Positions 1-34,845 of a stretch of DNA of 64,000 bases are shown piece after piece; within the stretch, counting starts at the first letter, position 1; each line of letters begins with the position of its first letter. The notes under the pieces are model-generated. The model made no database searches and had not been told where the DNA came from. It saw only the letters and a program-made list of their open reading frames with translations. Origin of the DNA: an uncultured Alphaproteobacteria bacterium. Lineage in GTDB: Bacteria > Pseudomonadota > Alphaproteobacteria > Rhizobiales > Aestuariivirgaceae. The stretch is from contig CALMWF010000017.1 in NCBI GenBank assembly GCA_937873445.1, positions 1-64,000 on the forward strand, read 5' to 3'. A program made the translations under genes and the position numbers.

Positions 1-30
1 TCAATGCCATGACGCCCCTGTGCTGTGCTC

Positions 31-155
31 CAGAGCAGCCTGACTTTTGACGGAATCGACAAAAGTCAGAAAGCTGCTCGCCAACCATCAGTCCCAGAGC
101 AGCCTGACTTTTGACGGAACCGACAAAAGCCAGAAAGCTGCTCGCCAACCATCAG
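31..155. repeat. Tandem pair of 61-bp palindromic repeat units (module A)
   Basis: Two 61-bp copies lie at 31-91 and 95-155, separated by 3 bp and differing at only two positions by eye. Each unit has an outer inverted repeat GAGCAGC / GCTGCTC and an inner one CTGACTTTTG / CAAAAGTCAG, so each can fold into a long hairpin. A third copy is at 34060-34106. The form resembles the mosaic intergenic elements (RIME-type) described in rhizobia; that assignment is an inference from layout, not from a sequence match. Confidence 0.85.
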
Positions 156-157
156 AC

Positions 158-195
158 AGAGCGGATGTTCTGATCCAGCAAAACCTGTTCCGCCC
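158..195. repeat. Module B of the mosaic repeat
   Basis: Directly after the two A units lies a second inverted repeat that begins with GAGCGG and ends with CCGCCC, with an imperfect inner palindrome around GATCC. The same module, with a perfect inner palindrome, follows module A at 34122-34158. The A-B order is the same at both loci, so A and B form one composite element here, with A duplicated. Confidence 0.75.
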
Positions 196-210
196 TGACA
201 AAACCCCAAC

Positions 211-34052: not shown

Positions 34053-34059
34053 CATGCTA

Positions 34060-34158
34060 GAGCAGCCTGACTTTTGACGGTTGCGGCAAAAGACAGAAAG
34101 CTGCTCGCCCACAACAAGTTAGAGCGGACGTTTTGATCCATCAAAACCTATTCCGCTC
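34060..34158. repeat. Second copy of the composite palindromic repeat (A plus B)
   Basis: Module A at 34060-34106 (GAGCAGC / GCTGCTC with inner TGACTTTTG / CAAAAGACA arms) is followed by module B at 34122-34158. Module B has GAGCGG / CCGCTC outer arms and a perfect inner palindrome GTTTTGAT / ATCAAAAC. The element shares its order and much of its sequence with 31-195. Its right end overlaps the 3' end of the alpha/beta hydrolase gene on the minus strand. Confidence 0.85.
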
Positions 34159-34845
34159 GAGCCCATGGTCGGTGAGCCAGCGCCCGATGATGGCCGCCGT
34201 CTCCTGCGGATATTCCAGACTGGGAAAATGGCCGCACTCGGCAATCTCCACATATCGTCCGCGCGCCACCGCCTGTGACAGGCTCAGGCCCTGAGCGGCG
34301 GCGGTGAACTGGTCCTCGCGCCCCCACAGGCACAGAACCGGCATGGCAAGTGAAGCAAGCCTGGGCCACAGATCGCCGCGATGGGCCAGCGCATCCGATT
34401 GCCGTGCCATGCCCTCCGCGCCCATGGCCTGTGCCATGGCAATGAACGCGTCACGCGCGGCGGGCCCCCGCGGCCCCGGCAGATGGGCCACCATGGCCCC
34501 CATTTCCGCCAGCACCTGCTCAAACTCGCCGCCGCGCATGCGCTTCCCCCGCGCCAGCCCCACGGCACGATCGGCGATGGGCCCGGCACTGGCGCCGATG
34601 ACAATAAGACCCCTAACCCGCTCCGGCGCGGCCAGCGCCGTTTCCAGCGCCACCCGGCCACCGAAGCTCGTGCCCATCAGCACGAAGCGATCCGGCGCCG
34701 CCGCCAGCACCTGTGCCACGCAGGCCTCAAGCCGGTCTTCGGTTGCCACCACACTGGCAAGCCTTGCTTGCGGAGCCAGCAGCCCGGCCACCTCGTCATA
34801 CTGCCCGGCACCGCAGCCCAGCGCGGGAATGGCAATGAGTGTCAT
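34141..34845 (-). CDS. Alpha/beta hydrolase
   Basis: A 234-residue alpha/beta hydrolase. The nucleophile elbow is GTSFGG, the acid is probably Asp in WGREDQF, and the base His is in ECGHFPSLE. Substrate unknown. The ATG at 34845 has GGAG 6 nt upstream; that Shine-Dalgarno lies on the earlier ATG at 34857. The last five residues and the stop codon (ERNRF-stop) are encoded by repeat module B, so the original C-terminus may have been replaced. Divergent from the PfkB kinase gene. Confidence 0.85.
   Translation of the reverse strand: MTLIAIPALGCGAGQYDEVAGLLAPQARLASVVATEDRLEACVAQVLAAAPDRFVLMGTSFGGRVALETALAAPERVRGLIVIGASAGPIADRAVGLARGKRMRGGEFEQVLAEMGAMVAHLPGPRGPAARDAFIAMAQAMGAEGMARQSDALAHRGDLWPRLASLAMPVLCLWGREDQFTAAAQGLSLSQAVARGRYVEIAECGHFPSLEYPQETAAIIGRWLTDHGLERNRF

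Follow-up and report, generated by a model that had tools for sequence, protein, structure and literature searches.

Intergenic palindromic repeats of an uncultured alphaproteobacterium have ends resembling those of IS630-family insertion sequences

The described systems closest to the repeat analyzed here are the CcrM-associated intergenic repeats (CIRs) of Caulobacter (Chen and Shapiro 2003, as presented in the review PMC2229807). In what it says of them, this review holds that their movement needs more information and leaves open the role of their CcrM sites. In Brucella, passages of PMC2266754, PMC2267715 and PMC10800456 describe the repeats Bru-RS1 and Bru-RS2 as the preferred insertion place of an insertion sequence (IS) that targets YTAR. 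RUP of Streptococcus pneumoniae is a 107-bp repeat for which mobilization by an IS630 transposase at TA has been proposed (PMC2229807). Members of the IS630 family itself are known to insert at TA and to duplicate this dinucleotide (PMC2170065), and a preference for CTAG is named in a title cited by the same paper.

The repeat that we describe, from an uncultured member of the Alphaproteobacteria, shares with CIRs a size near 110 bp, a build of two long inverted-repeat arms with a linker between them, TA termini, a strictly intergenic location and occurrence in Alphaproteobacteria (PMC2229807). CIRs have a GANTC at or in one terminal loop, and part of the copies studied here have it as well. 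It differs from them in that the species under study keeps the loop GANTC in only 3 of its 27 copies and in that its first hairpin, A, is doubled; the likening to CIR1-4 is by description. With Bru-RS1 and Bru-RS2, which are palindromic intergenic repeats of 103-106 bp (PMC2266754, PMC2267715, PMC10800456), the likeness is one of size and place rather than of sequence, and the IS family that uses the repeats as a hot spot differs. The likeness to RUP extends to length and to the proposed mover, whereas the repeat described here consists of two hairpins with a methylation site at a fixed distance from the end and belongs to a different phylum. IS630-family ISs such as ISRel6, annotated in NC_004041.2, resemble the repeat in their YTAGAGC ends, in the GANTC at positions 24-28 of the left end and in their TA flanks, but such an IS is about 1.05 kb long and carries a transposase gene, and hairpins of this kind were not seen at its ends.

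The window, by which we mean the whole stretch of 64,000 nucleotides analyzed, starts at base 1 of contig C17 and hosts two copies of the repeat, both on the forward strand. Composite element 1 (30..198), with the order A-A-B, is flanked by an aspartokinase-like gene and a methyltransferase gene, which we take to be LysC and UbiG or UbiG-like, respectively. It lies 30 bp from the contig end, and its upstream neighbor, the aspartokinase-like gene (AA_kinase + ACT), is found on contig C36. The left terminal CCA (30..32) is a degenerate YTA end, as comparison with 12 near-identical loci of the congener G009 indicates. Hairpin A1 (32..79) has the form GAGCAGC...GCTGCTC, with the inner stem CTGACTTTTG/CAAAAGTCAG, and holds in its loop a GAATC (53..57), which is a GANTC (CcrM) site; counted from the element end it occupies positions 24-28, as it does in IS630 left ends. 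The second copy, A2 (96..143), has GAACC in its loop and has lost the GANTC; it is followed by a linker (144..158) and by a decayed hairpin B (159..195; GAGCGG...CCGCCC). Element 2 (34057..34161), with the order A-B, lies between the end of a cytochrome c' gene on the forward strand and an alpha/beta-hydrolase gene on the reverse strand, which converge on it. Its hairpin A (34059..34106) has the loop GGTTGCGG, without GANTC, and its hairpin B (34122..34158; GAGCGG...CCGCTC) is intact.

This layout confirms what the initial annotation had read from the letters, namely two near-identical 61-bp hairpin units followed by a different hairpin, and the same A-B pair again 34 kb away. The first A unit begins at 32 and the second at 96, a spacing of 64 bp, and the two are identical at 58 of 61 positions, while the A-B pair at 34059-34156 shares 85% identity with 96-193. 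The 19-base A core has three matches in the window at three or fewer mismatches, against a mean of 0.00 in 100 shuffles. When folded as DNA, A1 (z = -6.9) and element 2 (z = -6.8) are more stable than all of 200 shuffles, and A2 together with the decayed B (z = -3.3) is equaled by one of 200. No T-run was seen by eye in the sequence after the hairpins. In the window the Rfam gathering score was reached by a tRNA alone, which leaves the repeat without a known structured-RNA match.

The doubled A may have arisen by local duplication of A together with the linker. Contigs C36 (locus L017) and C17 overlap by 55 bases (window 1-55) and diverge at the first difference between A1 and A2. Such a split is the expected behavior of an assembler if single-A reads coexist with A-A reads, and the A copy number at element 1 possibly varies between coexisting sequences.

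Copies of the repeat are not confined to the window. The host genome (2.58 Mb, 98% complete) has 26 blastn places (E ≤ 0.01) and 31 covariance-model matches (E ≤ 0.001, not deduplicated), and relatives were positive as well; here and below, match counts are not deduplicated between strands and E-values are approximate. The number of scored candidates per genome was capped (at 150, 105 or 13), which makes the high counts minimum values. The sister species G014, whose methyltransferase is 91% identical to that of the window, has at least 110 matches with model R1 (E ≤ 0.001) and at least 100 with model R2 (E ≤ 1e-5), some of them in tandem arrays of whole elements with a period of about 101-103 bp. 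Of 37 genomes of the genus, 13 gave matches, the host and G014 included; the other congeners are G009 (16 matches), G020 (11), G003 and G015 (8 each), G019 (6), G002 (4) and five with one each. In a sample of 289 genomes of the class, matches were found in four, namely the host, G132 (13), G299 (10) and G241 (1). G030, from another family of the order, has two matches to the model. A scan of genome contigs with the A-core pattern, from which near records were possibly omitted, returned four matches in other phyla that we took as chance. A second G014 subfamily (CTAGAGCAACCGGCGGTCAGTTGGA...), present at L217, L218, L219 and L223, resembles the subfamily of the burst of copies in G009.

Plasmid searches with the elements of G014, G132 and G019 gave no matches, and that with the G299 element gave five Rhizobium records, each covering half of the query. 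On a Rhizobium laguerreae plasmid (L306), an intergenic copy between kdpB and kdpC has a CTAG end, GAATC at 24-28 and GCTCTA; in a copy from R. leguminosarum (L305) the GANTC is lost. The RIME of Rhizobium, attributed to Osteras in 1995, is, to go by its title, reportedly an intergenic mosaic, and we liken our repeat and these two Rhizobium copies to it by that title rather than by sequence.

To characterize the repeat we analyzed 27 copies of the host species, 58 of G014, ten of G132, nine of G299, 15 of other congeners and the 12 G009 loci. The element is 105 or 107 model positions long and consists of two inverted-repeat arms and a linker. Three stretches vary little, namely CTAGA(G/T)C at one end, GGANTC in the loop and GCTCTA at the right end. 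Across species the sequence of the stems varies and their pairing is kept. In 53 G014 copies, 90.6% of cells are paired and 11 of 35 pairs have changed on both sides. The covariation score of these copies was reached by none of 500 shuffles, and the slid control is biased toward this result, as the structure was drawn from the same sequences.

The view that modules are reused in a fixed order, with one of them doubled, stands in part. The A-A-B order recurs at C16:72427-72591 and partly at C40:52198-52351, and A occurs without B at two loci (L011, L013). A strict regular expression found no lone B in 458 kb, except at C8:211498, where the interior is not B-like; degenerate lone Bs may escape this search. 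Free reshuffling of modules as the main process is not supported, and we set it aside: most copies have A at one end and B at the other of a single element of about 105 bp. The broader proposal of a mobile, intergenic, modular palindromic element is borne out by the genome-wide copies, by occupancy that differs between sister species, by the covarying stems and by the intergenic placement.

The placement was measured against gene calls from a home-made, uncurated codon-usage script trained on 30 long open reading frames of the window. In the 458-kb sample of the host genome, 93% is coding. With four bases trimmed at each end, the 27 host copies and the 58 G014 copies reach at most 17 bp into predicted genes; seven copies among the two sets overlap predicted coding sequence, by 1-17 bp. 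Convergent genes flank 15 of 25 host copies, after two copies at contig edges were dropped, as compared to 69 of 406 gene pairs. The excess is weaker in G014 (14 of 46, with arrays collapsed and eight edge cases dropped; P-value = 0.03 against the gene-pair baseline of the host genome). In 12 of the 27 host copies and 16 of the 58 in G014, the terminal bases of the element include a neighboring stop codon. The tetranucleotide CTAG is rare, with 72 occurrences in the 458 kb, 41 of which are outside predicted genes.

On the evidence of sequence, the ends of the element match those of alphaproteobacterial IS630-family insertion sequences, a relation that is newly recognized here. Among 12 genomes, PF13358 (DDE_3, IS630) was found in five and PF13340 in seven, the host being in neither group. 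Searches of the host genome with DDE_3 and DUF4096 gave no match, so no mobilizer was seen there. Presence of IS630 and of the repeat do not track each other, as IS630 occurs in four of nine repeat-bearing and one of three repeat-free genomes. Autonomous IS630 copies with like ends are nevertheless present in the lineage, although not in the host genome. In the congeners G013 and G020, both ends read YTAGAGC(G/A), the flanks are TA and the left end has GAATC at 24-28. In G014 the left end, CTAGAGCCTGCTGTTTTTTGACGGAATC, is identical to CTAGAGCAACCTGACTTTTGACGGAATC of the G014 repeat at 23 of 28 positions (hand count), and it adjoins a repeat element. For the G009 IS630 copy no matching ends were recognized.

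We extended the comparison to plasmids by taking 28 of 1,088 matching IS630 records, 20 from Alphaproteobacteria and eight others. The left end could be located in 19 of the 20 alphaproteobacterial copies (it was not found in L285), and in 17 of these 19 it has GANTC at 24-28; the two without it are from Methylobacterium (L294) and Sphingopyxis (L295). Sixteen of the 17 were placed by script and one (L279) was re-anchored by hand, and L290 is nearly a duplicate of L277. GANTC at 24-28 is absent from all 18 resolved right ends and from the eight other IS630s, several ends of which are uncertain. We built one matrix from 15 left ends that all carry GANTC, omitting L290, L294, L295 and one end that failed the re-finding rule; it placed the window termini 30, 34132 (reverse strand) and 94 at ranks 1-3 of 127,942 and the other two at 10 and 11. 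A matrix of 14 right ends placed the five termini at ranks 1, 2, 3, 4 and 6 of 127,942, with the intact hairpin B of element 2 first and the decayed hairpin B of element 1 sixth. After permutation of the matrix columns, no terminus entered the top three in any of 300 trials, for left and right ends alike. With columns 8-30 alone, the best terminus ranked 9 (left) and 5 (right) and the others fell between 27 and 2,524. The loss of rank without the first seven columns indicates that the TAGAGC end carries much of the signal, and the similarity between repeat and IS630 past the terminal seven bases is modest.

Comparison of the two sister species shows that occupancy has changed. Seven G014 elements (L073, L104, L105, L113, L125, L143, L144) have empty counterparts in the host, and at least two loci (L010/L118 and L022/L130) are filled in both species. 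The orthologous interval of element 1 in G014 has no model match, and its surroundings are too diverged for the junction to be seen. YTAR is present at three of the seven empty sites (CTAA at L073, TTAG at L113, CTAG at L104/L008), and the remaining four (L105, L125, L143, L144) have no clear YTAR. TA occurs on both sides of the element at one of the seven, L104, beside an 11-bp indel, and when sites were pooled to test for target-site duplication, no offset stood out. The clearest set of target sites comes from G009, where near-identical copies lie at 12 unrelated loci (13 contig stretches, two of which represent the same locus). At all 12, Y precedes and R follows the TA positions, and TA itself is intact on the left at ten and on the right at 12, mostly as judged by eye. 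In G014, an IS present at ten loci (L216-L225) stops at its right end one base before CTAG in all ten, and seven of these CTAGs form the end of palindromic elements. The C-terminal reading of this IS is like that of IS481 transposases. Repeats thus serve it as a hot spot in the way that Bru-RS serves IS711, but the IS family is another one.

The GANTC is a regular part of the repeat end in the relatives and is mostly lost in the host species. It lies at exactly 24-28 in 12 of 12 G009 loci, 8 of 10 G132 copies, 7 of 9 G299 copies, 29 of 58 G014 copies and 7 of 15 copies of other congeners, and no other GANTC offset exceeds two in these five sets. In the host it is kept in 3 of 27 copies, A1 of the window being one of them. 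The loop GGTTGCGG, which has no GANTC, is shared by eight of the 27 host copies and suggests spread without the site. The RAMA domain, which is part of CcrM, has a match in all 41 genomes searched, the host included. The G014 element at L144 (C114:2687-2792) directly follows a ccrM-like gene with a RAMA match at 2371-2670; its host counterpart is empty.

We consider it probable (roughly 0.78), from the sequence comparisons above, that the repeat is a non-autonomous MITE of the CIR/Bru-RS type built from two IS630-family (Tc1/mariner) ends; we class it by architecture with the CIR-type repeats and by its ends with the IS630-derived MITEs. Support comes from the IS630-like ends, the YTAR-like sites of the recent burst, the intergenic and convergent bias, the covarying stems and the differences in occupancy between sister species. 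Each IS630 end would have become a hairpin, A resembling the left end and B the other, with a short linker joining them, although which IS end corresponds to which hairpin is our inference. An IS630 transposase acting in trans would move the element by cut-and-paste, excising it, inserting it at YTAR and duplicating TA. YTAR contains a stop codon whichever strand is read (TAR/YTA), and the first base of the element after the TA is G, so that insertion at a gene end would restore a TAG stop. Stop restoration combined with selection can explain why copies are intergenic and often lie exactly at stop codons. The copies of the host species are probably fossil.

The same palindromes could be read as elements of the REP/BIME type, mobilized by a RAYT (Y1 HUH) transposase acting on single-stranded hairpins. 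Hairpins do stand at both ends of the element, and Y1_Tnp is found in five of eight tested repeat-bearing congeners (G002, G003, G009, G015, G020) and in none of six repeat-free ones. At one Y1_Tnp match of G002 (L213), the distance to an element is about 640 bp. However, this is the only one of six Y1 loci with an element nearby, and Y1_Tnp was not found in the host, in G132, in G299 or in G014, which has the most copies of any genome. A script saw no strong palindrome beside Y1_Tnp genes, which is a weak control given that it also missed the element at L213. Mobilization by RAYT is therefore a poor fit and, in our judgment, very improbable. The palindromes might instead be retained for a cellular role, as bidirectional 3' ends, as mRNA-stabilizing hairpins or as chromosome sites regulated by CcrM. 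Such a role would agree with the convergent bias (15 of 25) and the covariation of the stems, and at L143 the other species has, by eye, a GC-rich inverted repeat in place of the element. The differing occupancy of sister species, the burst of near-identical copies and the lack of a visible T-run speak against it. As for CcrM, 79% of G014 copies retain the A and 75% the T of its site, below the 90% reached by most stem and linker columns, and 24 of the 27 host copies are without the site. We regard retention for a cellular role as unlikely.

A different mover is conceivable as well. A transposase of the IS5/IS427 type (IS711-like) likewise targets YTAR: IS711 duplicates the TA in YTAR and prefers Bru-RS, according to passages of PMC2266754, and the DUF4096 IS of G009 has the ends CTAGGGCGTGTTGAC. 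The IS630 ends, however, match the repeat over TAGAGC and over a GANTC at fixed distance. Our comparison of IS ends covered IS630, and among the YTAR-targeting families DUF4096 entered it by the one example printed here. On these grounds we think an origin from this second family improbable, and we retain the IS630-derived MITE as the best explanation.

With an IS630 origin, the GANTC of the left end might act as a methylation switch, with methylation by CcrM blocking the transposase and the hemimethylation that follows replication permitting it to act. CIR-type repeats would then have inherited the site, and their CcrM sites would mark transposon control rather than regulation of host genes. 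The control of IS10 by Dam is a known parallel (PMC10073500). We put this forward tentatively and consider it rather doubtful. Among the papers listed in a survey of the literature, with subscription journals mostly outside it, none was noticed that connects IS630 with either CIR-type repeats or CcrM sites.

The end shared with IS630 would give CIR-type repeats a concrete mover, a YTAR target rule and an explanation of the CcrM site as belonging to a transposon end. Whether CcrM couples transposition to the cell cycle thereby becomes testable. The placement of copies at gene ends may have its reason in the stop codon that YTAR contains in either direction. Together, these data suggest a spreading route for a puzzling class of bacterial repeats and an origin for a frequent DNA-methylation site.
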